Assembly: GCA_934045905.1 (NCBI GenBank)
Contig: OW203767.1
Coordinates: 20,711,073 to 20,775,072, forward strand
DNA length: 64,000 bases
Direction of reading: 5' to 3'
From: Leuctra nigra
Taxonomy: Eukaryota > Arthropoda > Insecta > Plecoptera > Leuctridae
Part shown: one piece after another, positions 15,925 to 64,000 of the stretch
Layout of the letters: the number at the start of each line of letters is the position of its first letter
Numbering within the stretch: position 1 is the first letter of the stretch
Notes under the pieces: generated by a model
What the model saw: the letters and a program-made list of their open reading frames with translations, nothing else
The model's database searches: none
Told to the model about the DNA's origin: nothing
Translations under genes and position numbers: made by a program

Positions 15925-16202
15925 TTTTCTGGGGCTAACGTCGCACTGTTCTGCAGCGAGGCTATAATGGCGACGGATGAATGATTATGATGATGATTGG
16001 GAGATGAAGGTGAAGAGTAGGTCAGGATGGGAGGTGGGAAGGAGGCGGTCGTGGCCTATTAGTAGGGTACCTTCCCAGCATTTGCCTGTCGACTGAGGGA
16101 ATACCACGAAAAAAACCCAGTCAGGAAAATCGGCCGCGGGAATCGAACCCGGGGCTCCAGAATACAAGTTTAGAGCGTTACCACTCAGCCAACCTGTCCT
16201 GT
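15925..16202 (-). mobile_element. tRNA-derived SINE
   Basis: On the minus strand the head reads 'GGTTGGCTGAGTGGTAACGC' (A box) and 'CCGGGTTCGATTCCCGCGGC' (B box). The body shares 'AGGTACCC(T)' and 'TAATAGGCCACGACCGCCTC' with the copies at 48938-49190 (plus) and 57112-57392 (minus). It ends with 'CAGTGCGACGTTAGCCCCAG'. The A and B boxes would form an internal RNA polymerase III promoter. A short frame read across it is not a gene. Confidence 0.9.
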
Positions 16203-16619
16203 TTCGTTTTTTTCTGTTTGAACAGAAAAACAAAAATGTATCAATTTTTTACACGTTTTATAGAATTCTATCCTTGCTAGAATCATGGGATTATTTTATA
16301 ACAGTTATTTTCTGCTTGCACATGTACAGAATGATATTTTGAACAATGATGTAAAAATTGGGCTCTGTGCCAAATAGTTTCTGAGATAAAAGTACACAAA
16401 TATGAAAAAATGGTTTGAAGATAAGATACACAGAAAATATGCCCTATGAAACAGTCAGTAGCTTCTTAGTTTACTTCTTAGTTTGAATGAATAGGATTCA
16501 AAAAATTTAGAAAATTATTGTATACGTAAGTTATAGACATAATTTAGGTTGATGTTTGTAAAAATAATATTCTTTATACATTTAAAGACCTTGCTTCTAC
16601 AATAAATAAAGAAGCATAT

Positions 16620-35100: not shown

Positions 35101-37994
35101 GCATCTCAGATATTGCCCATGTCACCCATGGCAGCCATTTTAAAAAATGGCGAATAATTGATGTGTTGTGCTAAATACGACGGGAATATGGCATGCAAAA
35201 ACATCTTTCCTACTAATTCGATCATGGTGAACTCGAATATAACATCAGAATTCTCCATTTGATCAACGCTTACCCGTGACGGCCATTTTTAAAAGTGGCG
35301 ACCATATTTGCTATGACGGCCAAGCGATGTGGGCAACATGACATGCGACACCATCTTTCCCACTAAATCGACCATGGAGAACTCGAATATGACATAAAAA
35401 TACTCGATTTGTTTACTGGTCACCCGTAACGGCCATTATAAGAAATGGCGCCCACTTAAAAATGTCACATGAATCTAAAATTGTCATGCGACACCATCTT
35501 TCCAACTAATTCGACCATGGAGAATTCGAATATGAAATCGAAATACTCAATTTGCTTACTGGTAACTCGTGGCAGCCATTTAAAAAAAATGGCACCACAT
35601 AAAAAACATATAAATCAAAAATTGTCATGCGACACAAATTTTCCTATTAAATCGGTCATGAGGAACTCGAATATGTCATCAAAATTTTCGATTTACTTAC
35701 TGGTCACCCGTAGCGGGCATTATTTAAATATGGCAGCTATTCATAAAATAAGATATTTGATAGAAAAGTCCATAGTATGTCACGTGACTTCATCCATGGT
35801 ACAAAATTGAAACTGGTATTGGTATTAGAGTATACTATTGGCTCATTATATCAATCATTTGGCCAATATAATTTTTCCTACCTCCGTGAAGAGCCATCCA
35901 TTGTGGATAACAACATTGTCTTGGGCTGGGCTGCGGAATATACGTACGAGGGCTGTACCGAAAGTATGCAACTTTAGCCATAACTTTGCTATTAATTGAA
36001 ACACATCGTTCAAATTGCTCATGGTGATTGAGTAACACTTCGTCTATACAACATTCGCTGAGTCACAAGAGATGTGATTGCGTGATGGTTGAACTCAACA
36101 CTCCAATTATATTTGCACCTGCCTATGTGCTGCTTTTTGGCAATAAGACAGGCATTCGGCAGATTGGGCCATTCAATCAATGTATTCCCATCCATGTAAC
36201 ATCCAGAATCTTACACCTTTCAACTTCTACCACTCAGTTTTACCAAGGTCAATTATTTGGGACACGATTTGAGTACGCTCTCATAGCATTGGCTGTGAAG
36301 AAGAGGGTAATAAACGGTAAACCCCACATAAATTAAATTATATTAAAATTGTTCAACCGCGCGTCGACAACTAGTAGGTCATTTTGCGCACATTATTTTT
36401 TTTATTTTTAGCTTAGTTGTTAATAAGTGAAGGACATGGGGAGGGGTCGATCTAGCGGACCCGATCTGGGGGAGTCTGCAACTGGTGGGAAAGCCAGTTC
36501 AGAATGGTGACAGACCTGGGGGAGGGAGACTTCGGGCCGGTGGGACCCGATTGCAGGGGGATCAGCATCTCGAGGGGGGGAGGCCGGCCCGAGGGGTCCG
36601 CGAATTTGGGGAGGGCATGGAACTAGGTCGACCCTGAACTGCACTAAGTTGGGGCCAACTAGTAATGTGAGTTGGCCCCTTAAGCCACCACCACCGCGTC
36701 AAGGTAGCAGTCTATCGGTTAGAAACCCCACATATTTTAACCCGAATATTATTGGAGTGTTGAGTTCAACCATCGTGCAATCGCATCTCTTGTGTTGTAT
36801 AGAAGAAGTGTTACTCAATCACCATGAGCAATTTGAACGATGTGTTTCAATTAATAGCAAAGCTATGGCTAAAGTTGCATACTTTCGCTACAGCCCTCGT
36901 ACGTATATTCCGCAGCCCAGCCCAAGACAATGTTGTTATCCACAATGGATGGCTCTTCACGGAGGTAGGAAAAATTATATTGGCCAAATGATTGATATAA
37001 TGAGCCAATAGTATACTCTAATACCAATACCAGTTTCAATTTTGTACCATGGATGAAGTCACGTGACATACTACGGACTTTTCTATCAAATATCTTATTT
37101 TATGAATAGCTGCCATATTTAAATAATGCCCGCTACGGGTGACCAGTAAGTAAATCGAAAATTTTGATGACATATTCGAGTTCCCCAATGACCGATTTAA
37201 TAGGAAAATTGGTGTCGCATGACAATTTTTGATTTATATGTTTTTTATGTGGTGCCATTTTTTTTAAATGGCTGCCACGGGTTACCAGTAAGCAAATTGA
37301 GTATTTCGATTTCATATTCGAATTCTCCATGGTCGAATTAGTTGGAAAGATGGTGTCGCATGACAATTTTAGATTCATGTGACATTTTTAAGTGGGCGCC
37401 ATTTCTTAAAATGGCCGCCACGGGTGACCAGTAAACAAATCGAGTATTTTTATGTCATATTCGAGTTCTCCATGGTCGATTTAGTGGGAAAGATGGTGTC
37501 GCATGTCATGTTGCCCACATCGCTTGGCCGTCATAGCAAATATGGTCGCCACTTTTAAAAATGGCCGCCACGGGTAAGCGTTGATTAAATGGAGAATTCT
37601 GATGTTATATTCGAGTTCCCCATGATCGAATTAGTAGGAAAGATGTTTTTGCATGCCATATTTCTGTCGTATTTAGCACAATACATCAAATATTCGACAT
37701 TTTTTAAAATGGCTGCCACGGGTGACATGGGCAATATCTGAGATGCCTCCCGGTCTTTTAATGAATGGTTGGGTATCTAGTATGTGTGGTAAAAATTTGG
37801 TGCTTTTATACCAAAATGCACAATCGGGCCGTTTTCTTGCACATCCCGCCCGGACTAACTCCCAGATGTGAGGTGGAGGTTCATTATTATATATTTGCAA
37901 TTTCAGATATTGATTTTAATCGTCCTTGTTTCCAGATATATCTTCCTGGATCATCGAAATACCGGTCTTCGTTCTCGCCTTCTTAAATATGTAG
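29194..37994 (+). CDS. CAP1: Ag5-like CAP protein with divergent GHYTQ motif and hydrophobic tail
   Basis: Six-exon model: 29194-29203, 29351-29544, 31409-31640, 32834-32981, 34163-34437, 37936-37994. Phases are 1, 0, 1, 2, 1 and the product is 305 aa. Exon 1 encodes MIK. Exon 2 continues with a hydrophobic signal segment (LIWLFLVAAVW) and a C-x3-C...HTMC block, the insect antigen-5 N-terminus. Exon 3 carries LLDKHNKLR (the HNxxR helix) and WDEDLEEVAERWAFQC. Exon 4 carries VAQN and WFNES. Exon 5 holds ERYMNMVYGDANRMGCARV where the paralogues have GHYTQLVW, so the CAP histidine is replaced by Arg. The hinge CNYETGN...CMKCP...YRGLC is intact. Exon 6 adds a hydrophobic end (ISSWIIEIPVFVLAFLNM), suggesting membrane or GPI anchoring. 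Introns are loaded with mobile elements, and intron 5 holds a 2.9-kb foldback. An in-frame ATG at 29341 could start exon 2 alone, but it lies in the pyrimidine-poor acceptor region. CAP proteins are usually secreted; the function here is unknown. Confidence 0.82.
29590..29870 (+). repeat. R1 copy in CAP1 intron 2
   Basis: 'gtgatacgtgatggagccac' through 'ggtcagtcgtgttccttgtt', collinear with 531-1320 but shorter by internal deletion. Confidence 0.8.
30157..30560 (+). repeat. R6 repeat, first copy
   Basis: 'cactgcccaggtcaaac' ... 'aaccaatcgatctgaaattt' ... 'ttgaacaggatcctgtgag' recurs at 32037-32420 in the same intron and orientation. A more diverged relative with 'gatcctgtgattggtt' is around 3000-3170. 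Confidence 0.75.
30795..31225. repeat. R2 repeat (about 400 bp, GC-rich), copy 1
   Basis: Begins near 'cgcgtcaacgacgaggttat' with 'attgcgcacatta', then a G-rich core ('gggggagtcca', 'gggccggcggaacccgattt', 'atctcgagggggaaggccgg', 'ctgtccggcatgggta') and ends 'gtggcagccgtcgggggg'. Other copies are at 36350-36720 and 49745-50195. Apparent frames on both strands are not conserved as proteins between copies. Confidence 0.8.
31228..31330 (-). repeat. R3 copy in CAP1 intron 2
   Basis: 'ctccagttccacggcctgta' followed by 'gctcgcttatcaacgcgtta' and 'agcgttttcctag'. A sister copy sits at about 30690-30780, so R2 copy 1 is flanked by R3 on both sides in the same orientation. Confidence 0.7.
31645..32036. 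mobile_element. 390-bp foldback MITE at the CAP1 exon 3 donor
   Basis: Left arm 'gaggcaaacggaaacgaaag', 'ggaatcgcacggttcgtcag', 'cgacctcaaagtgttaaata' mirrors the right arm almost completely, with a loop near 31845. The element starts within about five bases of the exon 3/intron 3 junction at 31640/31641, leaving the donor G|GTTAGA. Related to the element at 3411-3830. Confidence 0.88.
32037..32420 (+). repeat. R6 repeat, second copy
   Basis: Same order of blocks as 30157-30560 ('tcttatggc(g/a)ctttctct', 'cactgcccaggtcaaac', 'caatcgatctgaaatttt', 'gggatcctgtgattgg'). It directly follows the foldback element. Confidence 0.75.
33091..33360. repeat. Poly-G run and transposon-like fragment in CAP1 intron 4
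   Basis: A run of about 20 G is followed by 'tctaaagggc', 'tgccccgcagggcg' and C-rich 'atccccccaccccccact', and then 'ctacgcacatg'. It resembles the homopolymer-rich element at 25328-25968 and may be a decayed relative. Confidence 0.5.
33851..34009. mobile_element. Small MITE in CAP1 intron 4
   Basis: 'gagccggtattaccaaagtt' faces 'aactttggcaataccgggcc', an inverted repeat enclosing about 110 bases with further 'ggattac'/'gttaatcc' pairing. Non-coding. Confidence 0.75.
34480..34890 (+). repeat. R4 repeat, two tandem copies
   Basis: Blocks 'gtgccaacataatgcccgtc' and 'gtgccatcataatgtccacg' with surrounding 'attgctgat(a/g)ta' and 'gttc(g/a)tgcaa' occur side by side. The single copy at 26215-26490 matches. 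Confidence 0.6.
34999..37858. mobile_element. 2.86-kb foldback element in CAP1 intron 5, with nested R2 insertion
   Basis: Terminal inverted repeat TTAGTCCGGGCGGGATGTG at both ends. The arms (about 34999-36112 and 36745-37858) are nearly identical inverted copies of about 1.1 kb. Each arm contains degenerate internal direct repeats carrying 'ggaaagatggtgtcgcatga' and 'ggccgccacgggtgaccagt' modules of roughly 120 bp. The 630-bp centre holds an R2 copy and unique sequence. Open frames appear in mirrored pairs on the two arms, so they reflect the repeat and not genes. Some arm segments still encode no recognisable transposase. It lies wholly inside an intron, between exon 5 and exon 6 of CAP1. 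Confidence 0.9.
36350..36720. repeat. R2 repeat, copy 2, nested in the foldback centre
   Basis: 'gcgtcgacaactagtaggtc' and 'attttgcgcacatta', then the G-rich core ('gggggagtctgcaactggtg', 'cgggccggtgggacccgatt', 'atctcgaggggggg'). Diverged relative to copies 1 and 3. Confidence 0.75.
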
Positions 37995-46585: not shown

Positions 46586-49500
46586 ATGGAATCATGGACG
46601 AATATGGAATTATGTAAGAAAACTCTTCTGGCAATTTTAATGATCACCACGCATAGCTAGAGACAGCTTCTTTTCCTAAGTTCCAAATAGAACAATATTG
46701 AACTGAACGCTCTAGTCAATTAAAACAATACTACATATTAGAATGAAAATAGAACTGAGTCCTGGTTTACCTCAATTTATTTTACCAGTCTGTAACAACA
46801 AAGAAGGGCGATACAATAATATAAGTTATGATTTCATTTCTATGAGTTTCATAATCCACTTTGAGGTTAGTAAATCCACGATGGAGCATTTTTGCCTCTG
46901 GTAACCTCTTTTAAACATTACGCTGTGGAGTCGAGCTTTCTTATTTACAAGATTCTATTTATATTCTTCTCACTCATGGTACAGTAGAAAGGTTTAGTGG
47001 AAATCCTTCGTATCACAACTTGTAGGTAGATGTTAAGAGTAGAAGGTACGACATCGGTTGTGTGGAGATAAAGAACCCTATTCTAGAACTTGAAAATTCT
47101 CACCGATTCAATGTTTATCTATATGGCCGTGTTTTTAGTGAGGCCTAACACTCAATATTCATTTGAAAATGATTTTCTCTCCCGGATTCAGTGATCCGAT
47201 TGCCATTGTTGTCTCTTCTTGCAACTGCTTCTGCCTTCGACTACTGTACTATACCGTGCGATGGCGCCAATCACACGATGTGTCAGTACAAAGAAGAGGT
47301 ACGTCACTCTCCACAAGAAGCTAAAACCATATATTGTCTGTTTCCATTCCAAATGTATGGTACATATCTACCTTTCATGTTGTGCTTTTCGCAACAGGTC
47401 AAACGAAGTTGCGTAATAGGCTAATTTATTCACACAAAAATCATTCCGGTTCAACTTCCTATGAATTGATATCAAGAGGGTCTCATTGAAACTCATATTA
47501 TTTCCAACCATCTCTTATCAACGTGGTGTTCACTGTGCCAAGGAATGATAATCTTCTTGTATCTACAGGATCCAGGAGGGGCGTGTGAAGATGCCGTCAC
47601 CAGCAGTGACCTGACACATACTCAGCGAGAAGCCATGGTGAATGCCCACAACGAGTACAGGAACACAGTGGCGCTTGGGCAATGATTATCTTCCTGTACC
47701 TACAGGATCCAGGAGGGGCGTGTGAAGATGCCGTCACCAGCAGTGATCTGACACATACTCAGCGAGAAGCCATGGTGAATGCCCACAACGAGTACAGGAA
47801 CACAGTGGCGCTTGGGCAATGATTATCTTCTTGTACCTACAGGATCCAGGAGGGGCGTGTGAAGATGCCGTCACCAGCAGTGACCTGACACATACTCAGC
47901 GAGAAGCCATGGTGAATGCCCACAACGAGTACAGGAACACAGTGGCGCTTGGGCAATGATTATCTTCCTGTACCTACAGGATCCAGGAGGGGCGTGTGAA
48001 GATGCCGTCACCAGCAGTGACCTGACACATACTCAGCGAGAAGCCATGGTGAATGCCCACAACGAGTACAGGAACACAGTGGCGCTTGGGCAATGATTAT
48101 CTTCCTGTACCTACAGGATCCAGGAGGGGCGTGTGAAGATGCCGTCACCAGCAGTGACCTGACACATACTCAGCGAGAAGCCATGGTGAATGCCCACAAC
48201 GAGTACAGGAACACAGTGGCGCTTGGGCAATGATTATCTTCCTGTACCTACAGGATCCAGGAGGGGCGTGTGAAGATGCCGTCACCAGCAGTGATCTGAC
48301 ACATACTCAGCGAGAAGCCATGGTGAATGCCCACAACGAGTACAGGAACACAGTGGCGCTTGGGCAATGATTATCTTCTTGTACCTACAGGATCCAGGAG
48401 GGCGTGTGAAGATGCCGTCACCAGCAGTGACCTGACACATACTCAGCGAGAAGCCATGGTGAATGCCCACAACGAGTACAGGAACACAGTGGCACTTGGG
48501 CAATGATTATCTTCCTGTACCTACAGGATCCAGGAGGGGCGTGTGAAGATGCCGTCACCAGCAGTGACCTGACACATACTCAGCGAGAAGTCATGGTGAA
48601 TGCCCACAACGAGTACAGGAACACAGTGGCACTTGGGCAAGTGTCGCCACATCCCAAAGCAGCGAACATGCGTCTTGTCAAGTGGGACAAGGAACTGGAA
48701 GCCATTGCTCAGAGGTGGGCGATGCAGTGTACAGTCGGCCACGATCAATGCCGCGACCTAGGTTGGTCAATCTATAACTGTTCACGGCGGTATTATGCAC
48801 TAAGGTCCGTTGAAGTTTATACATTCAGAATATTGGAGAGTGAAGTTTTGGATCACCTCCACTCGACATTTTGGAAAAGTTGAAGTAGCTGAGAGGCCGA
48901 CTGCAATTGATACATTTACCTACCTTCTATGACGTATGAACTTGTATTCCGGAGGCCCGGGTTCGATTCCCGCGGCCGTCCTTCCTGACTGAGGTTTTTC
49001 GTGGTTTTCCCTCAGTCGAAAGGCAAATGCTGGGAAGGTACCCTGCTAATAGGCCACGACCGCCTCCTTCCCACCTTCCATCCTTACCTACTCTTCACCA
49101 TCATCTCCCAATCATCAACATAATCATTCATCCGTCGCCATTAGCCTCGCTGCAGAACAGTGCGACGTTAAGCCCCAAACAAAAAAAAACTATGACATAT
49201 GATCTCATTTTGTTAAGATGATTCTTGGTAAAGATCCAGTTCACCGTATCCAAGTCCGAGATTATTCTCCTCCCAACGAAAAAAAAAGTAATTTGGACTC
49301 CTTGCGTATAGTATCAAATCAGAGAAAAATACTGTGCAAATTTATTTGAAAATGCATTGGATCCAATATTGAAGTTAAGAATGATCCCCTACTTTCCTCT
49401 TCGACTCATAACTTCATGTCCTGCAGAGGACGGCACCCATGTCGGGCAGAACGTGGCCTCGCGTCCTGGCGACACAGAGCTCGGTCTCAAAGCGTCAGTC

Positions 49501-52500
49501 AAGATGTGGTTCGACGAAGTCAACGAATACCCAAATACAGGAGCCTTCAAATTCGCAAAGTATACGTGAGTAATCTGTAAATGGAGATGGAAATGGAGTT
49601 ACCATGGGACAGCAAGTAGCAATCTAACAGCAATTTAGATTGGTAGAGCCCAACATTGGAATTCAATTCTAAGGACAATAGGTAACGAGTGCCCCAACCC
49701 CTTACATCTACTTCTTCCTTTGTTCAATCATTGCTGATAAGATTCGATTCGATTCGATTATTACAGTTTAACACCGCGTCAACGACAAGGCTATATTGCG
49801 CACATTAAGATTTACATTTAACTTTGTTGATCATAAGTGGAGGACATGGGGAAGGGATCGACCTAACGGGCCGGATCTGGGGGAGTCCAGCACTGGTGGG
49901 AAGGCCAGGCCGGAATGGGGACGGACCGGGGGGCGTGAGGATTCGGGCCGGCGGAACCCGATTTCAGGGGGATCACCATCTCGAGGGGGGAGGCCGGCCC
50001 GGGGGGAGCGCCAATTCTAGGGAGGGCATGGTTAGGTCGACCCTGGCTGCTTTTGTCTGGACCTCACCACTGACCTGTCCGGCATGGGTAGCCCTTACAC
50101 TTGAGCATATGCTCGCCGGCGTAGCTGCAGTGGATCATTGGTCAACACAAATCCCATCCACCGCGTCAAGGTGGTAGCCGTCGGGGGGATTGCTGATTCG
50201 AAACAAATATTAATGTAACACTTTCATAAGGGTTTGTTTATAAGAACCAACCAACCACCTCATATCTAATTTCTCCATTCAAAAACTTGACGGTAATTCG
50301 AGCTCCAACTTAGCAGTTTACCGTCAACTTTTCTGACCATGGATGTACTAACCAGTCTTCCTGACGTAATGTTGGCAATGTTCACTGCTCAGTGGTCACT
50401 ACACGCAGCTAGTTTGGGCGGAGACGGACAGAATCTTCCTGACGTAATGTTGGCAATGTTCTCTGCTCAGTGGCCACTACACGCAGCTGGTTTGGGCGGA
50501 GACTGACAGAATCTTCCTGACGTAATGTTGGCAATGTTCTCTGCTCAGTGGCCACTACACGCAGCTGGTTTGGGCGGAGACGGACAGAATCTTCCTTACG
50601 TAATGTTGGCAATGTTCTCTGCTCAGTGGCCACTACACGCAGCTGGTTTGGGCGGAGACGGACAGAATCTTCCTGACGTAATGTTGGCAATGTTCTCTGC
50701 TCAGTGGCCACTACACGCAGCTGGTTTGGGCGGAGACTGACAGAATCTTCCTGACGTAATGTTGGCAATGTTCTCTGCTCAGTGGCCACTACACGCAGCT
50801 GGTTTGGGCGGAGACGGACAGAATCTTCCTTACGTAATGTTGGCAATGTTCTCTGCTCAGTGGCCACTACACGCAGCTGGTTTGGGCGGAGACGGACAGA
50901 ATCTTCCTGACGTAATGTTGGCAATGTTCTCTGCTCAGTGGCCACTACACGCAGCTGGTTTGGGCGGAGACGGACAGAATCTTCCTGACGTAATGTTGGC
51001 AATGTTATCTGCTCAGTGGTCACTACACGCAGCTGGTTTGGGCCGAGACGGACAGAATCGGCTGCGCACGAGTCAAGTCCAAGGCCAACACACTGGTTGT
51101 CTGCAATTACGCCACTGCTGGCAACATTGTCGGAGGCACGCTGTACGTGACGGGTGAACCGTGCTCCAAGTGTCCAGAAGATCTGCCGTGCAATGAGAAC
51201 TACAAGGGTCTATGCGGGGACGATGTTGGGGACACGACGGACAAGAAGGCTGACGGATCCAAATGCGGTGCAGGTTAGTCTCAAATTGCTTCGTTCGAGA
51301 ATCATCGCACAGAATGAAGAAAACACTTTTAATGACTTACAATGTGCCGAATATTAGGGGCTGTTTTTGCTAAATTTTAAACAGTTGATTGGGATTATAC
51401 CGGGTGGCGCAGAAAACGCACAATGGGCGAGACATCGCTGTGACGTAACAACTGCACACATCTGACTGAAAATTTCACATAATATAAACAACAAACTGTG
51501 GTTTAATGTGTGAAAGTTTCAAACACATTACTTTTGTGAGAAAAAAGTTACAGTGGATTGAATTTGGTTCTCGAAAAATCGATTATACGGATCTCAAATA
51601 AGACGCGTCCAGAAAACGTGCATTGGATTGGACGCTTTTTCTTCAAAACTACGCATGATAACTAGCTGAAAATTTCAAATTTTATGCACAATATATTGCC
51701 ATCATATATGTAAAGATTTCATTAAATTTTAATTAATGGAACAAAAGTTATGGTACCTTGAAGCTGAGCTTAAAAGCAGAATTAGCGTGTGATAATTTCA
51801 CTTTTTGAAAATATTGAGTGTAATAAAACTTAGAAATTATATTCTACTTTTAGGCTCAACTTCCCGACACCATAACTTTCGTTCCATTGATCCTAATGTA
51901 TTGAAATTCTTACATAATTGATAGAAATATATTTTCCTTATAATTTCAAATTTTCAGCTTGTTATCATGTGTAGTTTTGAATAAACAGCTTCCCAACCAA
52001 TTAACGGTTTCTGGACGGGACCTATTTGAGGTTCGTATAATCGATTTTTCGAAAACCAAATTCGAACAACTGTAACTTTCTTTCTACAAAGGTAATGTTT
52101 TTGAAACTTTCACACATTAAACCATAGTATGTTGTTTATATTATGTGAAATTTTCAGCCCGATGTATATAGTAGTTTCGTCAAAGCGATGTCTCGGCCAT
52201 TGTGCGTTTTTTATGCGCCACCCCGTATTACCATGGCTGCAACCAATGACATATCAAATAGCAATTTGATTTCAATGGAATATATCTCACTATCACTATA
52301 TTAATATTTTTATCGGACAGAAGGTTTTGTGGCAATAATCCTGAACGTAAATGCTTCAGTTTTATTATTCTACAAATTACGAAACTATTATGAACGTATT
52401 ATATAATATAAACAATAAAGCAATGTGCTCCAATTTATGTAATATAAAGGTGCAATAATTTATGCAAAATCCAACATTTATTGTTTGTAATTAAAATGTA

Positions 52501-52599
52501 TTGAAACATAATCGTGAGCTACATATTATATTATTTGTTTCAGGTGGTTTGTTATGGTTCGCAGTTGTCTTCGCCTACTTCATCGTTCTAATAATCTGA
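46586..52599 (+). CDS. CAP4: canonical Ag5-like CAP protein with two decoy-acceptor arrays
   Basis: Six exons: 46586-46613 (or from the second in-frame ATG at 46604), 47192-47298, 48527-48761, 49427-49565, 51017-51273, 52544-52599. Phases are 1, 0, 1, 2, 1 and the product is 273 (or 267) aa. The leader LIRLPLLSLLATASAF precedes DYC-x3-C...HTMC. Exon 3 has MVNAHNEYRNTVALG and WDKELEAIAQRW. Exon 4 has HVGQN and MWFDEV. Exon 5 has GHYTQLVWAETDRIGCA and the hinge CNYATAGN...CSKCP...YKGLC. Exon 6 encodes GGLLWFAVVFAYFIVLII and ends with the hydrophobic stretch; after the small residues before it (GAG), this fits a GPI-attachment signal better than a transmembrane anchor. Exons 3 and 5 are the last units of tandem arrays of partial exons (137 bp x 8 and 78 bp x 9), so a complete mRNA requires skipping seven and eight upstream acceptors. 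Both signature histidines are present. Closest in the cluster to CAP3. Confidence 0.88.
47544..48640 (+). repeat. Array 1: 137-bp partial-exon tandem array at CAP4 exon 3
   Basis: Eight copies. The exon parts start at 47569, 47706, 47843, 47980, 48117, 48254, 48391 and 48527. Each unit is 23 bases of intron 3' end ('tgattatcttcctgtacctacag' in most) plus the first 114 bases of exon 3, up to CTTGGGCAA. Copies 1-6 run straight into an in-frame TGA; copy 7 lacks one G and is out of frame. Only copy 8 continues (CAAGTGTCGCC...) into the complete exon. The decoys keep the AG acceptor but have no donor at their 3' edge. Copies differ by only a few bases. Confidence 0.95.
48938..49190 (+). mobile_element. 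tRNA-derived SINE in CAP4 intron 3
   Basis: B box 'CCGGGTTCGATTCCCGCGGC', then the family body and an A-rich end ('ccccaaacaaaaaaaaac'). The head before the B box is poorly preserved. Same family as 15925-16202. Confidence 0.85.
49745..50195. repeat. R2 repeat, copy 3, in CAP4 intron 4
   Basis: Preceded by a short (GATTC)n run, then 'ccgcgtcaacgacaaggcta' and 'attgcgcacatta'. It has the same GC-rich core as 30795-31225 and ends 'ggtggtagccgtcggggg'. Confidence 0.85.
50356..51059 (+). repeat. Array 2: 78-bp partial-exon tandem array at CAP4 exon 5
   Basis: Nine acceptors in register. The exon parts start at 50393, 50471, 50549, 50627, 50705, 50783, 50861, 50939 and 51017. Each unit is 35 bases of intron end (TTCCTGACGTAATG, pyrimidine-rich TTCTCTGCTCAG) and the first 43 bases of exon 5 (the GHYTQLVWAETDRI codons). 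In the first eight copies the frame meets TAA in ACGTAATG four codons past the exon part. Because 78 is a multiple of 3, long open frames appear on both strands; they are artefacts of the repeat. Copies vary at only a few sites (GAGACG/GAGACT, CTGACG/CTTACG). Confidence 0.95.
51398..52227. mobile_element. 830-bp foldback element in CAP4 intron 5
   Basis: TACCGGGTGGCGCAGAAAAC at the left faces ATGCGCCACCCCGTA at the right. The arms of about 400 bases match throughout, with blocks such as 'aacacattacttttgtgaga' and 'tttctacaaaggtaatgttt'. No coding frame. Confidence 0.85.
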
Positions 52600-52603
52600 A
52601 TTT

Positions 52604-52609
52604 AATAAA
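52604..52609 (+). other. CAP4 polyadenylation signal
   Basis: AATAAA four bases after the stop codon. It is unusually close, but no better signal lies just beyond. Confidence 0.45.
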
Positions 52610-52739
52610 TAATTATCTAATCATTAATGGTTTTTATGTAGCGTAGTGTGACACTGAGGTGAAATATAAATTGTTTTTCAATTAATGGTCCTTGGTGTGA
52701 AATACATATTTTTTAAGAACACAGTGATTTGTTCAATTA

Positions 52740-52945
52740 TTTTTAAACGGAACATATTGGCTGAGCAGGTGCTTTTTATTCGATTCCCTCAGTCGACCTT
52801 CCCGACTGAGGTATTTCTTGTCCGATTACCTGATTGTACCTGATTTTAATTTGTTTTGTTTTAATTGTTATGTTAAGAACGTGTCCAATATCATTTTTAT
52901 ATCAAATAGGGAATAATAAATAAAAACTTGAAACTTGAACTTGAA
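52740..52945 (+). repeat. SINE fragment and retroelement tail between CAP4 and CAP5
   Basis: 'attccctcagtcgaccttcc' and 'cgactgaggtatttctt' are from the SINE body. This runs into 'ggaataataaataaaaactt' with a (TTGAAAC)n-type tail typical of non-LTR 3' ends. Confidence 0.55.
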
Positions 52946-53718
52946 ATCATTATTGTCATCATTACTCATTTGCATTAATCATAATTTTTCACAAAATATA
53001 TCTCGCTTTCTTATTTCAAAGTAAAATCCTATAATTATTTGTATTAATTGTTTATGTAAGTTTTCATTGTAAAAAGCTTTACAAATATTTATAAAATTAT
53101 TGGCTCAGAAAATGGGCTCATAAAAGAAAACAGACATTTAATCCATAGTAAAATGGATGCTGTACACAAGTCTTAGGCAACAAATTAATAACAGTTTACA
53201 ATACGTTTACAATTTTAAGAAAATTCTGTCAAGATATACTTATTTTGAAATATTTGGCCCATGATCGATGGAATGAGATCAATTATCAAGATTAGGCAAT
53301 TCGAAGAGAGTTAAAAGACGCTTATCTGTGATCTCGATAGCAAAAACGAGCCTTTGTCGAGTTTAACACCTCAAAATCATGTGGGGCACGTGTCGTCTCT
53401 TATCATAATGCGTTAGTGCAAGAATGTTTGCTGCCTGTAAATATTGACATTGGCAGTGATACAAAACTAAATCAACTAAGCCTATCTTTATGCAGTTTTT
53501 GTCATGTTCGTTTTGGGTGTGTAAAAAACGTTAAAAATATAATCTAATGCACTGGTTGGGTAACTAGTATATTACTCTCTGTTTATTCTTGATAAGATTA
53601 AAGCAATTATTTTTTATAATATTTTTACAGCTGTGTGTCTAAATGAGAAGGATTATCCCAAGGTATCGCCAAAACCATATCTCTGTTGCAATTCGTTGGG
53701 TACACTTCCTCTGTCATC

Positions 53719-56700
53719 ATGAAATACGCAGGTAAGTTAAAATTTAAAAATACTAGGAAAACGCTCAGTGTAACGCGTTGATGAGCAAGCCTTCGTATTG
53801 AATGTGAATAAGTGTGAAATTTGTTCCTCTACAGTCATTGATCTAATGAATTTGTCAAAGAAGCCGTGAAAAAAATCTTTGATAGATTCATTGTGACATT
53901 GATATTTTAATTTTACTGATTATGATTCTTTTGAAATATATAACTCTTGAAGCTCATTACAGATTTAAGTCTGAGAGTGTCAAAAATATACTTATCTAAT
54001 GCTGGTTCTATAATGACCATGCAAAATTTGGTGATGATCGGTCAAACAATTGCAATTATATTGACACACAGAGTTTCTTTCATCCCATTGCCAAGCTAAA
54101 ACTACTAAGTTCCCAATGAAACCAATGGAGTGAACTTGCTGAAAATCATTTTGACCACAACCAAAAAAGTAATATAAGTTTTGTGAAAAAATTGGCCTGA
54201 TCCGCTACTTCGTTTGGCAGGAGACGCCAAATACACAGATAAAAAACAAAAGTGATTCGAGACATAAGTTTCAAGTGGAGACGCTCGCTCCACTCGCTTG
54301 ATTAGGACATTTTAAAATATCGTCGAAGTTTTAACAAAAGTTTTTATTTTAATTATACTCACTATTCATTCCATAAGAGAAATGAATTAGATTTCAACGG
54401 AAAATATCTTCGAGACGGCAGAAAACGACACTCACCAGTAATTTCTTTAGTGAAATGGATATTACATGCATCGTAATACCATGCAAACAATCATGGTTTC
54501 AACTGATATTTAATTAAATATTATGACATTCCAATGTAACGACTAAACGTTTGATACATTTGCTTCTATTTCAGTGTTTCAGTTGATTACAATGGTGGCA
54601 GTTGTGGGTCGAACTTCTGCGCAGGACTACTGCGCAAGTCCATGTGTAGACTGGATGGGCGTGGCTGAAGTTCATACAATGTGTCGCTTTCCAGAGGTAA
54701 GCTCATGAGTTATGATTTATGAGAATATGTTGGAAATTGTTTCATAAGTGAGTGTAACTTTGATAGGACGTTCACATGATTGGACTGAATGCATATTAGT
54801 AGCACTTTTTAATTTTTGCTTCTTGCATTGTTAATTAGGCGCCGGTTTTTAAAAAGCAAACGCTAAAAAATATGAAATTTCTGATAAGATTGGAGATCAA
54901 ACCCGTTCACCAATTGATCTAAAAATTTAATCATGATTAGATAAAAGACAAACTTAGGGTTTAGCTTGGCACATTTTTAAAAAAAAGTTTCATACGGCAC
55001 CCATTGAGACAAGAAAATAGACTATTTTTCACCAAAAATGAACTAATTATTACTAATTATTAACGAAGCAAAAAATAAAAAATCTTGCAAAGGATAACCC
55101 TAATTTTTTTTTATCTATTCATAGTTAAAATTTAAAACCATTTCGTCAACTCATTTTGTCGAATACCATTTACGTATACGAATACCATAAAAGATGGAAT
55201 GATAGCACCCAAACACAACAACATTATAGTGATCATGGAACACAAAATAATTGAACAATTGTATCTATAGTTTAACAACGAGAGATAAAGTTGGGAAGGT
55301 TCCCCACTAATAGGCCACGATTGTCTTCTTCCCATCATTGTTCTTCATGCATCTTCATAATCTTTCATTCGTCCCCATTAACCTCCTTGCAGATCAGTGC
55401 GTCGTTGCCTATTATAAAAATACCTTCGTAAGTGTCAGGTATGAAATGCTCTCTGATTCTGATTTTAACAAATCCGGAGAGGAAAAAATTTTCATCTTGC
55501 AGTTGGTATTTATTCATATCAATCTATCATAAGAAAAACCCATATTATATTTCATAAGAATATAAGACACCTATATATTATGCAGTTATATTACGCGTTG
55601 CGTCTATATTACGTAAAAATGTGCTCACTTAATTTTAGTGCATCATTTTGCATCATTTGTACTCTAGACTCCAAGAGTATTCAACTTTTGGTCAGGCCTA
55701 TAAAAATAAATAATTTCGGGTTAAATGTTATCGTGACAAATACAATACACTTTTCTAGCTTTGATTCACACTGACGATTTTATTACAGTGCAAATGATAT
55801 CTCAATGATAAATTAGTTGTAAATGCCAACATTGGGCGCTGTTCTCCTCCAACTACTTTACCGACTCATCTCATGTTGTTCACCAGCACGCCGTGGGAGA
55901 GCGCTGCGGTAGTCTGTGGCGGTGGATTTCTCCAACTACTTTACCGACTCATCTCATGTTGTTCACCAGCACGGCGTGGGAGAGCGCTGCGGTAGTCTGT
56001 GGCGGTGGATTTCTCCAACTACTTTACCGACTCATCTCATGTTGTTCAGCAGCACGGCGTGGGAGAGCGCTGCGGTAGTCTGTGGCGGTGGATTTCTCCA
56101 ACTACTTTACCGACTCATCTCATGTTGTTCACCAGCACGCCGTGGGAGAGCGCTGCGGTAGTCTGTGGCGGTGGATTTCTCCAACTACTTTACCGACTCA
56201 TCTCATGTTGTTCAGCAGCACGGCGTGGGAGAGCGCTGCGGTAGTCTGTGGTGGTGGATTTCTCCAACTACTTTACCGACTCATCTCATGTTGTTCAGCA
56301 GCACGCCGTGGGAGAGCGCTGCGGTAGTCTGTGGCGGTGGATTTCTCCAACTACTTTACCGACTCATCTCATGTTGTTCACCAGCACGCCGTGGGAGAGC
56401 GCTGCGGTAGTCTGTGGCGGTGGATTTCTCCAACTACTTTACCGACTCATCTCATGTTGTTCACCAGCACGCCGTGGGAGAGCGCTGCGGTAGTCTGTGG
56501 CGGTGGATTTCTCCAACTACTTTACCGACTCATCTCATGTTGTTCACCAGCACGCCGTGGGAGAGCGCTGCGGTAGTCTGTGGCCGGTGGATTTCTCCAA
56601 CGAGGAGAAGACGCTAATCCTGCACCACCACAACATGTACAGAAGCCACGTGGCAATGGGGCTGGAGACGCGAGGCATGCCGGGACCGCAACCGCCGGCA

Positions 56701-59700
56701 GCGAACATGCGACAACTGTGGTGGGACGAGGAACTAGAGACGATTGCGCGCAGATGGGCGAGACAGTGCACCTATGAACATGATAAATGCAGGAACAGAT
56801 GTTAGTTGTGTATATTGAAGAATTAGTTCAAGGTTATCATATGAAATGTAGAAATTTTCTGACAATCTCAGATGGGATGATGTTATGTATGAACTGCAAA
56901 TTTAAAAGATTTGACCTCCGGTGGGATTTGAGCCCATGACCTTTAGATTGCCGGTCTAATGCTCTACCAACTGAGCTACGGAGAATCCTTCAAATTTGCA
57001 GCTTTTATAACCCATATGACTTGTACAAGCTCAGGAAGTGATGATGCAATCTAAAGGTCATGGGCTCAAATCCCACCGGAGATCAAATCTTTTAAATTTG
57101 CAATTTTTTTTTGTCTGGGGCTTAACGTCGCACTGTTCTGCAGCGAGGCTAATGGCGACGGATGAATGGTTATGAGGATGATTGGGAGATGATGGTGAAG
57201 AGTAGGTAAGGATGGAGGGTGGGAAGGAGGTGGTCGTGGCCTATTAGTAGGGTACCTTCCAAGCATTTGCCTGTCGACTAAGGAAATACCACGAAAAAAC
57301 CCCAGTCAGGAAGGACGGCCGCGGGATCGAACCCGGGCCTCCGGAATACAAGTTCAGTGCGTTAACCACTCAGCCAACCTGCCAACCCTTATACTTAATT
57401 TAACTCAATTTTAACCATTTTGGAACGTTTTTGACATGATGTGTGTATTTAGAATGTTTTTTCACATATTATTTTAAATGGGCTTATTTTCTTAGATCAT
57501 CTGATCATCTCATCTTATCATCTGACCTTTGTGTGCACAAACGGTTGTGTAAAAACAAATGTTGGTTACGTTCTTACGCCACCATTTGTAGTATTGAAAA
57601 TAATATTAGGTCCACCATTGATAATGATAAATTCAGGAACAGATGCTAGTTGAATATGAAAGAATAGTGACCATATTATAATTAATTCAAGATTATCTTT
57701 AGCTACACATTTCGCCTTTTGCGTGAACAAACGGTTGCGTAAAAACAAATATTGGCTACCAACTTCTGCCACCATTTGTTATATTCTAAAAAAAAAAAAA
57801 AATCATGTTTACCATATTTTTATGACTTTTTACAATGAAGTTAAATTAACGGTCATTTTACACGGTTCATTACAGGTTTTCATAATTACACAAATCTTCA
57901 TTTATATAATTTGTTTTAGTATTTGTTTCCTTTATAACCATCTGCGTTTGAGTATACCTACTTGAACATGTACTTTTGAACCATCAAACACGTTTAAACA
58001 TGAAAAATACGTTATTTAACATCTTTAGTCGAAATAAGAAGTCAACATCGATATTCAAAGTTTGTGCTACTAGAAGCAAAAGTGGACAAAATTTAGACAT
58101 TATTCGTTTTGGCACAAATATTTCAATTAGAAAGAGTAATTAATATTGCCTAGGCAGACTCAAGAAGCAGTAATTTAATATTTAACACGTTCTTACTAAT
58201 TCTGATGATTAAAAAGCTATGACGTTAGCAATATTAACTTAGGCGTCCAGTCGACGAGTCATTCATATGGGCAGCTGGGGGAAATGTGGTATCATCTAAT
58301 ATTCACAGCATCCGTACCAATACACTGAGCGACCTGCGGTTGCACTGAGTAATTAAGAACATATTTGATGAAAACTATAAAATTAATATTTTAAAGTTGA
58401 AAATGACTGCATTCCACATGATTCAATAAAACATCAAATAAAATTATATTTTGTGAATGTCATAATTATGTCACAAACTTATAATTTGGGACTAACCATG
58501 TTGACCGAGCAATTACCTCTAAACTTTGAATGATATGTACTAAGTGACTTGCATGTCTGTGTAGTCTACGGTGACTCTGTGGGACAGAACCTGCTGCTAA
58601 CATACCTGAACCTGGACGGAGGCCCCAACCACCCTCTCAGCAACCTCATCAGGGTGTTCTATGAGGTCTACATGATATGTACTTGCATGTCTGCGTAGAC
58701 TACGGTGACTCTGTGGGACAGAACCTGCTGCTAACATACCTGAACCTGGACGGAGGCCCCAACCACCCTCTCAGCAACCTCATCAGGGTGTTCTATGAGG
58801 TCTACATGATATGTACTTGCATGTCTGCGTAGTCTACGGTGACTCTGTGGGACAGAACCTGCAGCTAACATACCTGAACCTGGACGGAGGCCCCAACCAC
58901 CCTCTCAGCAACCTCATCAGGGTGTTCTATGAGGTCTACATGATATGTACTTGCATGTCTGTGTAGACTACGGTGACTCTGTGGGACAGAACCTGCTGCT
59001 AACATACCTGAACCTGGACGGAGGCCCCAACCACCCTCTCAGCAACCTCATCAGGGTGTTCTATGAGGTCTACATGATATGTACTTGCATGTCTGTGTAG
59101 TCTACGGTGACTCTGTGGGACAGAACCTGCTGCTAACATACCTGAACCTGGACGGAGGCCCCAACCACCCTCTGAGCAACCTCATCAGGGTGTTCTATGA
59201 GGTCTACATGATATGTACTTGCATGTCTGTGTAGTCTACGGTGACTCTGTGGGACAGAACCTGCTGCTAACATACCTGAACCTGGACGGAGGCCCCAACC
59301 ACCCTCTCAGCAACCTCATCAGGGTGTTCTATGAGGTCTACATGATATGTACTTGCATGTCTGCGTAGACTACGGTGACTCTGTGGGACAGAACCTGCTG
59401 CTAACATACCTGAACCTGGACGGAGGCCCCAACCACCCTCTCAGCAACCTCATCAGGGTGTTCTATGAGGTCTACATGATATGTACTTGCATGTCTGCGT
59501 AGTCTACGGTGACTCTGTGGGACAGAACCTGCTGCTAACATACCTGAACCTGGACGGAGGCCCCAACCTCCCTCTCAGCAACCTCATCAGGGTGTTCTAT
59601 GAGGTCTACATGATATGTACTTGCATGTCTGTGTAGACTACGGTGACTCTGTGGGACAGAACCTGCTGCTAACATACCTGAACCTGGACGGAGGCCCCAA

Positions 59701-62700
59701 CCACCCTCTCAGCAACCTCATCAGGGTGTTCTATGAGGTCTACATGATATGTACTTGCATGTCTGCGTAGACTACGGTGACTCTGTGGGACAGAACCTGC
59801 TGCTAACATACCTGAACCTGGACGGAGGCCCCAACCACCCTCTCAGCAACCTCATCAGGGTGTTCTATGAGGTCTACATGATATGTACTTGCATGTCTGT
59901 GTAGACTACGGTGACTCTGTGGGACAGAACCTGCTGCTAACATACCTGAACCTGGACGGAGGCCCCAACCACCCTCTGAGCAACCTCATCAGGGTGTTCT
60001 ATGAGGTCTACATGATATGTACTTGCATGTCTGCGTAGACTATGGTGACTCTGTGGGACAGAACCTGCTGCTAACATACCTGAACCTGGACGGAGGCCCC
60101 AACCACCCTCTCAGCAACCTCATCAGGGTGTTCTATGAGGTCTACATGATATGTACTTGCATGTCTGCGTAGACTACGGTGACTCTGTGGGACAGAACCT
60201 GCTGCTAACATACCTGAACCTGGACGGAGGCCCCAACCACCCTCTCAGCAACCTCATCAGGGTGTTCTATGAGGTCTACATGATATGTATTTGCATGTCT
60301 GCGTAGACTACGGTGACTCTGTGGGACAGAACCTGCTGCTAACATACCTGAACCTGGACGGAGGCCCCAACCACCCTCTCAGCAACCTCATCAGGGTGTT
60401 CTATGAGGTCTACATGATATGTACTTGCATGTCTGCGTAGACTACGGTGACTCTGTGGGACAGAACCTGCTGCTAACATACCTGAACCTGGACGGAGGCC
60501 CCAACCACTCTCTCAGCAACCTCATCAGGGTGTTCTATGAGGTCTACATGATATGTACTTGCATGTCTGTGTAGTCTACGGTGACTCTGTGGGACAGAAC
60601 CTGCTGCTAACATACCTGAACCTGGACGGAGGCCCCAACCACCCTCTCAGCAACCTCATCAGGGTGTTCTATGAGGTCTACATGATATGTACTTGCATGT
60701 CTGTGTAGTCTACGGTGACTCTGTGGGACAGAACTTGCTGCTAACATACCTGAACCTGGACGGAGGCCCCAACCACCCTCTCAGCAACCTCATCAGGGTG
60801 TTCTATGAGGTCTACATGATATGTACTTGCATGTCTGCGTAGACTACGGTGACTCTGTGGGACAGAACCTGCTGCTAACATACCTGAACCTGGACGGAGG
60901 CCCCAACCACCCTCTCAGCAACCTCATCAGGGTGTTCTATGAGGTCTACATGATATGTACTTGCATGTCTGTGTAGACTACGGTGACTCTGTGGGACAGA
61001 ACCTGCTGCTAACATACCTGAACCTGGACGGAGGCCCCAACCACCCTCTCAGCAACCTCATCAGGGTGTTCTATGAGGTCTACATGATATGTACTTGCAT
61101 GTCTGCGTAGACTACGGTGACTCTGTGGGACAGAACCTGCTGCTAACATACCTGAACCTGGACGGAGGCCCCAACCACCCTCTCAGCAACCTCATCAGGG
61201 TGTTCTATGAGGTCTACATGATATGTACTTGCATGTCTGTGTAGACTACGGTGACTCTGTGGGACAGAACCTGCTGCTAACATACCTGAACCTGGACGGA
61301 GGCCCCAACCACCCTCTCAGCAACCTCATCAGGGTGTTCTATGAGGTCTACATGATATGTACTTGCATGTCTGTGTAGACTACGGTGACTCTGTGGGACA
61401 GAACCTGCTGCTAACATACCTGAACCTGGACAGAGGCCCCAACCACCCTCTCAGCAACCTCATCAGGGTGTTCTATGAGGTCTACATGATATGTACTTGC
61501 ATGTCTGCGTAGACTACGGTGACTCTGTGGGACAGAACCTGCTGCTAACATACCTGAACCTGGACGGAGGCCCCAACCACCCTCTCAGCAACCTCATCAG
61601 GGTGTTCTATGAGGTCTACATGATATGTACTTGCATGTCTGCGTAGACTACGGTGACTCTGTGGGACAGAACCTGCTGCTAACATACCTGAACCTGGACG
61701 GAGGCCCCAACCACCCTCTCAGCAACCTCATCAGGGTGTTCTATGAGGTCTACATGATATGTACTTGCATGTCTGTGTAGACTACGGTGACTCTGTGGGA
61801 CAGAACCTGCTGCTAACATACCTGAACCTGGACGGAGGCCCCAACCACCCTCTCAGCAACCTCATCAGGGTGTTCTATGAGGTCTACATGATATGTACTT
61901 GCATGTCTGTGTAGTCTACGGTGACTCTGTGGGACAGAACCTGCTGCTAACATACCTGAACCTGGACGGAGGCCCCAACCACCCTCTGAGCAACCTCATC
62001 AGGGTGTTCTATGAGGTCTACATGATATGTACTTGCATGTCTGTGTAGTCTACGGTGACTCTGTGGGACAGAACCTGCTGCTAACATACCTGAACCTGGA
62101 CGGAGGCCCCAACCACCCTCTCAGCAACCTCATCAGGGTGTTCTATGAGGTCTACATGATATGTACTTGCATGTCTGCGTAGACTACGGTGACTCTGTGG
62201 GACAGAACCTGCTGCTAACATACCTGAACCTGGACGGAGGCCCCAACCACCCTCTCAGCAACCTCATCAGGGTGTTCTATGAGGTCTACATGATATGTAC
62301 TTGCATGTCTGCGTAGTCTACGGTGACTCTGTGGGACAGAACCTGCTGCTAACATACCTGAACCTGGACGGAGGCCCCAACCACCCTCTCAGCAACCTCA
62401 TCAGGGTGTTCTATGAGGTCTACATGATATGTACTTGCATGTCTGTGTAGACTACGGTGACTCTGTGGGACAGAACCTGCTGCTAACATACCTGAACCTG
62501 GACGGAGGCCCCAACCACCCTCTCAGCAACCTCATCAGGGTGTTCTATGAGGTCTACATGATATGTACTTGCATGTCTGCGTAGACTACGGTGACTCTGT
62601 GGGACAGAACCTGCTGCTAACATACCTGAACCTGGACGGAGGCCCCAACCACCCTCTCAGCAACCTCATCAGGGTGTTCTATGAGGTCTACATGATATGT

Positions 62701-64000
62701 ACTTGCATGTCTGTGTAGACTACGGTGACTCTGTGGGACAGAACCTGCTGCTAACATACCTGAACCTGGACGGAGGCCCCAACCACCCTCTGAGCAACCT
62801 CATCAGGGTGTTCTATGAGGTCTACATGATATGTACTTGCATGTCTGCGTAGACTATGGTGACTCTGTGGGACAGAACCTGCTGCTAACATACCTGAACC
62901 TGGACGGAGGCCCCAACCACCCTCTCAGCAACCTCATCAGGGTGTTCTATGAGGTCTACATGATATGTACTTGCATGTCTGCGTAGACTACGGTGACTCT
63001 GTGGGACAGAACCTGCTGCTAACATACCTGAACCTGGACGGAGGCCCCAACCACCCTCTCAGCAACCTCATCAGGGTGTTCTATGAGGTCTACATGATAT
63101 GTATTTGCATGTCTGCGTAGACTACGGTGACTCTGTGGGACAGAACCTGCTGCTAACATACCTGAACCTGGACGGAGGCCCCAACCACCCTCTCAGCAAC
63201 CTCATCAGGGTGTTCTATGAGGTCTACATGATATGTACTTGCATGTCTGTGTAGTCTACGGTGACTCTGTGGGACAGAACCTGCTGCTAACATACCTGAA
63301 CCTGGACGGAGGCCCCAACCACCCTCTCAGCAACCTCATCAGGGTGTTCTATGAGGTCTACATGATATGTACTTGCATGTCTGTGTAGTCTACGGTGACT
63401 CTGTGGGACAGAACTTGCTGCTAACATACCTGAACCTGGACGGAGGCCCCAACCACCCTCTCAGCAACCTCATCAGGGTGTTCTATGAGGTCTACATGAT
63501 ATGTACTTGCATGTCTGCGTAGACTACGGTGACTCTGTGGGACAGAACCTGCTGCTAACATACCTGAACCTGGACGGAGGCCCCAACCACCCTCTCAGCA
63601 ACCTCATCAGGGTGTTCTATGAGGTCTACATGATATGTACTTGCATGTCTGTGTAGACTACGGTGACTCTGTGGGACAGAACCTGCTGCTAACATACCTG
63701 AACCTGGACGGAGGCCCCAACCACCCTCTCAGCAACCTCATCAGGGTGTTCTATGAGGTCTACATGATATGTACTTGCATGTCTGCGTAGACTACGGTGA
63801 CTCTGTGGGACAGAACCTGCTGCTAACATACCTGAACCTGGACGGAGGCCCCAACCACCCTCTCAGCAACCTCATCAGGGTGTTCTATGAGGTCTACATG
63901 ATATGTACTTGCATGTCTGTGTAGACTACGGTGACTCTGTGGGACAGAACCTGCTGCTAACATACCTGAACCTGGACGGAGGCCCCAACCACCCTCTCAG
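53719..64000 (+). CDS. CAP5 (partial): Ag5-like CAP protein, cut by the window end
   Basis: Exons seen: 53719-53731, 54575-54696, 56551-56800, then exon 4, whose first portion is repeated from 58565 to the window end. Phases are 1, 0, 1. The leader MKYAVFQLITMVAVVGRTSAQ is followed by DYC-x3-C...HTMC. Exon 3 gives ILHHHNMYRSHVAMG (signature His present), MRQLWWDEELETIARRWARQC and HDKC. The start of exon 4 reads YGDSVGQNLL ... LIRVFYEVY, the counterpart of VGQN...WFDEV in CAP3 and CAP4. Exons 5 and 6 lie outside the window, so the GHYTQ motif cannot be checked. Exon 3 is the last unit of a 9-copy 83-bp array, and exon 4 is preceded by at least 41 acceptors 134 bp apart. Exon 1's ATG (TCATCATGAAA) and donor (GCAG|GTAAGT) are strong. 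Confidence 0.85.
53756..53840 (+). repeat. R3 copy in CAP5 intron 1
   Basis: 'aggaaaacgctcagtgtaac', 'gcgttgatgagcaagccttc' and 'gaatgtgaataagtgtga'. It begins about 25 bases after the exon 1 donor. Confidence 0.7.
55280..55410 (+). repeat. SINE 3' fragment in CAP5 intron 2
   Basis: 'gggaaggttccccactaata', 'ggccacgattgtcttcttcc' and 'cagatcagtgcgtcgtt' match the SINE body. The tRNA-like head is missing. Confidence 0.75.
55847..56601 (+). repeat. Array 3: 83-bp partial-exon tandem array at CAP5 exon 3
   Basis: Nine acceptors. The exon parts start at 55887, 55970, 56053, 56136, 56219, 56302, 56385, 56468 and 56551. Each unit contains an intron end (TTTACCGACTCATCTCATGTTG with CACCAG or CAGCAG) and the first ~50 bases of exon 3 to CTCCAAC. 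Decoys read TGTGGCGG (one TGTGGTGG) where the last copy reads TGTGGCCGG, so decoys leave the CAP frame and stop at a TAG in the next copy. The unit is 83 bp (not a multiple of 3), so identical peptides appear in rotating frames; these are not genes. Confidence 0.95.
56898..57108. repeat. Palindromic tRNA-like element in CAP5 intron 3
   Basis: The minus-strand block 56914-56985 folds as a near-complete cloverleaf: D arm GCTCAGTTGGTAGAGC, anticodon arm TTAGA-CCGGCAA-TCTAA, T arm GGG-CTCAAAT-CCC. The acceptor stem is 5-6 pairs. The loop lacks the usual T33 and the end pairs are mismatched. The 3' part is repeated inverted at about 57049-57108 ('gcaatctaaaggtcatgggc' ... 'ttaaatttgcaatt'), and a decayed relative is at 8919-8978. 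I call it a tRNA-derived repeat. Confidence 0.7.
57112..57392 (-). mobile_element. tRNA-derived SINE in CAP5 intron 3
   Basis: The most complete copy: minus-strand A box 'GGTTGGCTGAGTGGTTAACG', B box 'CCCGGGTTCGATCCCGCGGC', body and end as in 15925-16202. It directly abuts the palindromic tRNA-like element. Confidence 0.9.
57500..57800 (+). repeat. Duplicated intron block enclosing a dead copy of the exon 3/intron 3 junction
   Basis: 57624-57700 ('tgataaattcaggaacagat' then 'gctagttgaatatgaaagaa') is a diverged copy of 56779-56840, which holds the last exon 3 codons and donor. Its donor GT is changed to GC. Around it, 'acaaacggttgtgtaaaaac' (57539) and 'acaaacggttgcgtaaaaac' (57728), each followed by 'gccaccatttgt', form a direct repeat. 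Confidence 0.75.
58538..64000 (+). repeat. Array 4: 134-bp partial-exon tandem array at CAP5 exon 4, at least 41 copies
   Basis: Exon parts start at 58565 and then every 134 bases without exception to 63925 (40 intervals); the array continues past the window. Each unit has 3' intron sequence (about 'tatgtacttgcatgtctg(t/c)gtag') and the first ~110 bases of exon 4. Within each unit the CAP frame is open for 43 codons and ends on TAG, which is the acceptor AG of the next unit with its preceding T. Diagnostic single-base variants show a block of about 21 units repeated 2,814 bp away. No copy in the window continues into a full exon. Confidence 0.97.

Follow-up and report, generated by a model that had tools for sequence, protein, structure and literature searches.

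Introduction

Mirages are tandem duplications, similar to minisatellites, in which the repeated unit includes an intron-exon boundary. They have been described from amphioxus in Adh3, the globin genes BflGb6 and BflGb9, troponin C (TnC), and PGBD5 (PMC3087553, PMC3902484). The original description is that of Canestro et al. 2002, as cited in PMC3087553, while PMC3902484 added the PGBD5 mirage and cited troponin C. The BflGb6 mirage is composed of the 3' end of the intron and the 5' part of exon 2, in units of 150-160 bp, and its haplotypes contain 6 and 3 copies (PMC3087553). Reverse-transcription PCR suggests regular splicing for the globin mirage (PMC3087553), and length changes, allelic or somatic, are reported for mirages (PMC3087553, PMC3902484). 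Here, four tandem arrays, designated as A1 to A4, are described from two neighboring CAP genes, CAP4 and CAP5, in a 64,000-nt stretch of Leuctra nigra contig OW203767.1 (positions 20,711,073 to 20,775,072), which is called the window. These arrays are probably a cluster of mirage-type minisatellites. The original prediction had stated that no named system with this layout was known, and this is refuted by the amphioxus mirages (PMC3087553, PMC3902484).

As in amphioxus, a minisatellite-like duplication covers the intron-exon boundary, the authentic exon is at one end (in A1, A2, and A3), the middle copies are homogenized with the edges excluded (most clearly in A1 and A2), and the copies have splice signals. 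The differences are that the host is an insect-like genome instead of a cephalochordate, that four arrays lie in two adjacent genes and contain acceptors only, and that the copy number reaches at least 41, against the 6 and 3 of the BflGb6 haplotypes; the PGBD5 copies are, in addition, described as imperfect (PMC3902484).

Two other systems are more distant. Proto-splice-site intron gain (the Rogers model, reported for Drosophila in PMC2891723) also starts from an in-gene tandem duplication that doubles splice signals, but its unit has adjacent AG and GY and becomes a unit-length intron. This route does not fit the present arrays: AGGT is absent from the A1, A2, and A3 units, and the A4 unit has one (second copy of each array scanned). 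In the tandem dual-specific splice sites of UBC and VCX3A, the repeat units likewise carry a usable splice site; those of UBC delimit coding monomers and serve as donor or acceptor (AGGT) (PMC10809524), whereas acceptors are the only sites in the units of the present arrays, and reading from them ends at stops.

Structure of the Arrays

The arrays were located with Tandem Repeats Finder (TRF) on the 64-kb window, with a longest searched period of 500, and copies were counted on the acceptor. The predicted places and periods were confirmed, and all four units span an intron-exon boundary. A1 consists of 8 copies of 137 bp, A2 of 9 copies of 78 bp, A3 of 9 copies of 83 bp, and A4 of at least 41 copies of 134 bp. 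The spacing of the acceptors is constant at the unit length, except for one interval of 136 in A1. Every unit is composed of the last 25-40 nt of an intron and the first 41-112 nt of the following exon (25 + 112 nt in A1, 37 + 41 in A2, 40 + 43 in A3, and 27 + 107 in A4), and the first A4 copy has 8 additional intronic nt compared with the later copies. No common seed was found for the four arrays, as the longest word common to the units is 9 bases, in agreement with the prediction that the units share no sequence. The pattern used for G-quadruplexes gave no motif in any array. With a period of more than 36 bp, TRF found in the 64 kb only A1 to A4 and, at 35-38 kb, 141-150 bp pieces within a long inverted repeat.

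The acceptor AG is intact in all copies of A1 to A4 (67/67). In A1, A2, and A3, only the last copy continues into an open CAP exon, and the duplicates, here called decoys, lie on the intron side. The layout of A4 is only half seen because its true last copy and the remainder of CAP5 are beyond the window; the array runs past the window end, which cuts the 41st copy. When reading in the phase of the upstream exon, every readable decoy (63/63) reaches a stop within 14-63 codons: after 38 codons in six of the seven A1 decoys and after 14 in the other one, after 18 in all eight of A2, after 63 in seven of the eight of A3 and after 49 in the other one, and after 44 in all 40 of A4. All eight A3 decoys have a 1-nt deletion, and thus a frameshift, that is absent from the last copy. 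The original claims on the intact AG, the premature stops, and the opening of the last copy alone were therefore upheld.

A search of exon pieces against the window revealed five CAP genes. The exons with arrays are exons 2 and 4 of CAP4, exon 2 of CAP5, and, by homology, exon 3 of CAP5 (Table 1). No array was found in CAP4 exons 3 and 5 or in the exons found of CAP1, CAP2, and CAP3, and TRF reports no acceptor-spanning array in these three genes, as had been predicted. The start of CAP4 exon 1 was placed from an acceptor and a phase resembling those of CAP5, and a separate start-codon exon is not among the identified CAP4 exons.

When joined at the last acceptors, CAP4 encodes a CAP/SCP domain protein of the type of insect venom allergen 5 (PF00188, 83 bits against a cut-off of 21.1). 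Among the 22 matched structures, its closest solved relatives are 2vzn and 1qnx, the venom allergens 3 and 5. The product is collinear with the seven homologs aligned, from 40 found. Ten of the 40 matches have an organism name: one snail and one fish, both weaker, and eight insect genera (Ceutorhynchus, Apolygus, Exocentrus, Euwallacea, Anabrus, Dendroctonus, Molorchus, and Rhamnusium). The genome is called insect-like on the strength of these eight matches and of the Tenebrio molitor match of a second gene, described below. Between CAP3 and CAP4, nonsynonymous (dN) and synonymous (dS) divergence by NG86 are 0.25 and 0.75 for exon 2 and 0.25 and 0.74 for exon 4, a dN/dS of about 0.33. Thus, the exons that begin in the last copies evolved as coding sequences, at least before the arrays arose.

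Table 1. Positions in the window of the four arrays and of the identified exons of CAP4 and CAP5.
Feature	Position	Strand	Remarks
Array A1	47544..48640	+	First exonic bases: decoys 47569 ... 48391, last copy 48527
Array A2	50356..51059	+	First exonic bases: decoys 50393 ... 50939, last copy 51017
Array A3	55847..56601	+	First exonic bases: decoys 55887 ... 56468, each with 1 nt deleted in the exon part; last copy 56551
Array A4	58530..64000 (window end)	+	Placed in CAP5 exon 3 by homology
CAP4 exon 1	47192..47298	+	Signal-peptide tail, DYC...HTMC motif; donor GAG/GTACGT
CAP4 exon 2	48527..48761	+	Begins in the last A1 copy
CAP4 exon 3	49427..49565	+	Without array
CAP4 exon 4	51017..51273	+	GHYTQLVWAET motif; begins in the last A2 copy
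CAP4 exon 5	52544..52599	+	Hydrophobic C-terminal tail; without array
CAP5 start exon (inferred from sequence)	53719..53731	+	MKYA, phase 1
CAP5 exon 1	54575..54696	+	DYC...HTMC motif; donor GAG/GTAAGC
CAP5 exon 2	56551..56800	+	Begins in the last A3 copy

Splice Signals of the Decoys

The scanned decoys have a branch-like motif 19-29 nt upstream, and their pyrimidine content (0.59-0.76) lies within the values obtained for nine control acceptors from these genes (0.53-0.82). Judged by these letters, the decoys would be plausible acceptors. The prediction that they have no donor holds for strong donors and fails for weaker ones: the A1 unit includes the donor-like ATG/GTGAAT, whose GTGAAT is also present in the true exon of A1, and the A4 unit includes its AGGT plus ACG/GTGACT. 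No GTGAAT-type donor was found in the scanned second copies of A2 and A3.

The first A4 copy (58530-58564) reads TACTAAGTGACTTGCATG, and the 40 later copies are without 8 nt of this stretch, reading TACTTGCATG or, in two copies, TATTTGCATG. The lost 8 nt sit between ACT repeats, and the loss takes away a branch-like motif. Loss of the branch site was considered as a general rule by which decoys are silenced, and was rejected; it holds for A4 and partly for A1, while the A2 and A3 units keep branch-like motifs.

As a separate observation, A3 copies 3, 5, and 6 (56053, 56219, and 56302) have a C-to-G change at position -4. It creates CAGCAG, a tandem NAGNAG acceptor, in these three decoys only.

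Growth of the Arrays

The copies at the edges of A1 and A2 deviate from the consensus of their arrays. In A1, the first copy differs at 3 sites and the last at 2 sites; in A2, the first and last copies differ at 3 sites each. The inner copies of both arrays have at most one change, except for A1 copy 7 with a 1-nt deletion and two substitutions. In A4, only the first copy stands out from the rest. The first and last copies of A2 share with CAP3 a T at position 4, where all seven inner copies have C, which points to growth of A2 from inside.

Blocks of several units were also duplicated. A2 copies 2-4 are identical to copies 5-7, and in A1 one variant is common to copies 2 and 6 and another to copies 3 and 7, as well as to copy 1. 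A4 units 4-21 recur as units 25-41, with unit 15 having no partner, so that the block comprises 17 units. Its pairs, from (4,25) to (21,41), are identical in 16 of 17 cases, with 103 nt available for comparison in the last pair; among inner pairs in general, 15% are identical. Only 10 of the 134 sites vary among the A4 inner copies. The homogenized inner copies and the duplicated multi-unit blocks indicate minisatellite turnover, by unequal exchange or slippage, and not simple assembly stutter.

Homology at the breakpoints could be read for A1 (2 nt, AA), A2 (2 nt, TC), and A3 (7 nt, CTCCAAC).

Origin and Tolerance of the Arrays

Among the three options of the original prediction (local duplication, a splicing function, and artefact), a local duplication process fits best. 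Each array would have started independently, when a segment containing an acceptor was duplicated in tandem with short homology at the junction, and would have grown by unequal exchange or replication slippage. The last acceptor would be paired with the donor across the exon, leaving the decoys intronic. The arrays would then have little effect on fitness, although a varying share of transcripts would leak into nonsense products. The clustering may come from GC-rich exon DNA in an AT-rich region, from unstable alleles combined with the tolerance of acceptors, or from a local mutation bias. We consider this account as a whole likely.

The tolerance may be related to acceptor-donor distance and intron length. 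The distance from acceptor to donor is about 234-258 nt for the last acceptor and 882-1192 nt for the first, and the flanking introns are about 270-1764 nt. Upstream 3' splice sites are reported to be preferred overall, but exon definition weakens this preference, and long introns shift usage toward the sites nearest to each other across the exon (PMC9225289). The arrays would thus be tolerated because the introns are long (about 270 nt or more) and exon definition favors the last acceptor. It is inferred that the last acceptor is mainly used, with some leak.

The common layout had been taken to point to one mechanism or to a selected function. Any tandem duplication across an acceptor places the decoys first and the true exon last, and a shared mechanism is not needed for this order. 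What stands of the argument is a moderate preference for acceptors. The exon parts of the units have a GC content of 55-65%, while 27 of 32 two-kilobase windows are at 31-45%, and the bias toward exons may therefore be compositional.

Several points weigh against the account of separate, largely neutral duplications. Inner copies show concerted evolution with the edges excluded, but the divergence of the edges is clear only in A1 and A2: the first copy of A3 equals the consensus, its inner copies vary at up to 3 sites, and only its last copy is distinct. Placement was evaluated with unit-long segments distributed uniformly over the region after closing it up to 9.3 kb. This region has seven acceptors, the exon of A4 being assumed to measure 140 nt, and success was counted when all four segments spanned an acceptor by at least 20 nt per side without reaching the donor. 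The chance of this is 4e-6 under uniform placement and 0.003 given that each segment overlaps an exon, both values being post hoc and rough. A moderate acceptor preference thus remains beyond a neutral uniform process. Among the arrays of the window, none spans a donor, though donors should tolerate arrays equally. Moreover, the preference for upstream 3' splice sites implies that the first decoys could well be used (PMC9225289).

A splicing rheostat, in which decoys divert transcripts to nonsense products, the array length sets the CAP output, and selection keeps the AG and the stops, is unlikely. The AG in 67/67 copies, the early stop in 63/63 readable decoys, and the branch-like motifs (19-29 nt upstream) with pyrimidine contents of 0.59-0.76 within the control range are all consistent with it. 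However, the intact AG is expected anyway and is no mark of selection because so few sites (10/134) vary among the A4 inner copies. Selection is not needed to explain the loss of frame, which results from the unit lengths and the stops in the intron parts. In addition, amphioxus mirages reportedly leave splicing normal (PMC3087553, PMC3902484), and the intron lengths permit exon definition.

It is similarly improbable that the units were made by a mutational mechanism directed at 3' splice sites, such as copying of splicing intermediates or transcription-linked repair. The intron parts of the units (25, 37, 40, and 27 nt, with 35 nt in the first A4 copy) have about the length that usually separates a branch point from its acceptor. 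The start of A2 immediately follows TACTAAC, the 8 nt missing from the A4 decoys contain the end of TACTAAG, and the location of 4/4 arrays at acceptors, at 4e-6 under uniform placement, also suits such a process. Evidence against it is the lack of a strong branch motif near the A3 start in the scan, further branch-like motifs kept inside the A2 unit, plain short homology at the junctions, and the additional occurrence of amphioxus mirages at 5' splice sites (PMC3087553). A broader proposal is also unlikely. In it, an insect-lineage mutation process favors 3' splice sites and repeatedly copies a segment that starts close to the branch point and ends in the exon, some gene families thereby acquire long arrays of decoy acceptors, and array length tunes productive splicing.

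An assembly artefact, with excess or falsely joined copies, worst in A4, and perhaps stacked haplotypes, was among the original options and is very unlikely. The 17-unit block present twice in A4 could be read in this way, and an amphioxus mirage is reported to have been mis-assembled in the draft genome. The four arrays, though, have private variants, edges unlike the middle, and differing block sizes, and the unpaired unit 15 of A4 departs from the identical or regular blocks that an assembler would make. Even with genuine arrays, the copy number, notably the A4 total, could be in error.

Finally, the use of A1 decoys as small in-frame exons, with ATG/GTGAAT giving 69-nt (23-codon) exons and 68-nt introns, agrees with a donor matching in five of six letters and with 69 being a multiple of three, but it is hardly credible, as GTGAAT also occurs in the true exon, where it has to be ignored as a donor, and A2 and A3 are without such a site.

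Other Features of the Window

Antisense to A2, a 266-codon open frame is present at 50412-51209, and gene predictors may call it; the unit length of 78, being divisible by three, prevents its interruption. In CAP5 intron 2 (56913-57390), a tRNA-Ala-like gene (anticodon GGC, minus strand) precedes its partial inverted copy and an element resembling a short interspersed element (SINE). Similar elements were seen by eye near 48950-49190 and, more weakly, at 15990-16250.

A long inverted repeat with arms of 638 and 395 nt, 98-99% complementary, lies between CAP1 and CAP2 (35022-37825). It contains the 141-150 bp tandem pieces and looks like a foldback-type mobile element. Just past CAP1 exon 2, a near-perfect palindrome (31692-31988) has 148-nt arms that are 95% complementary and 1 nt apart. 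A dispersed GC-rich element occurs at 30884-31052 and 36438-36606 (76% alike), with a third copy at about 49830-50170 seen by eye in translation. A GC-rich open frame of 729 aa is present on the minus strand at 6512-8701; it matches no Pfam family, and among the 7990 candidates sharing most words that were scored, its single protein match is from Tenebrio molitor, over 16% of the length.

Implications

In open-licence literature, no published case of an insect mirage was found, the search not being exhaustive. The new element here is the apparent presence of mirages outside cephalochordates, four within about 17 kb and one with at least 41 copies. Mirages were earlier reported as a phenomenon that may be general in cephalochordates; the present cluster in an insect-like genome suggests that they can arise elsewhere and be extreme. 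If a process acting on 3' splice sites were true, mirages would be a general product of splicing-linked mutation and not a peculiarity of lancelets. Such acceptor arrays may mislead gene predictors. They are also natural competition tests of near-identical acceptors in series, in which the first acceptor is set against the one nearest to the donor.

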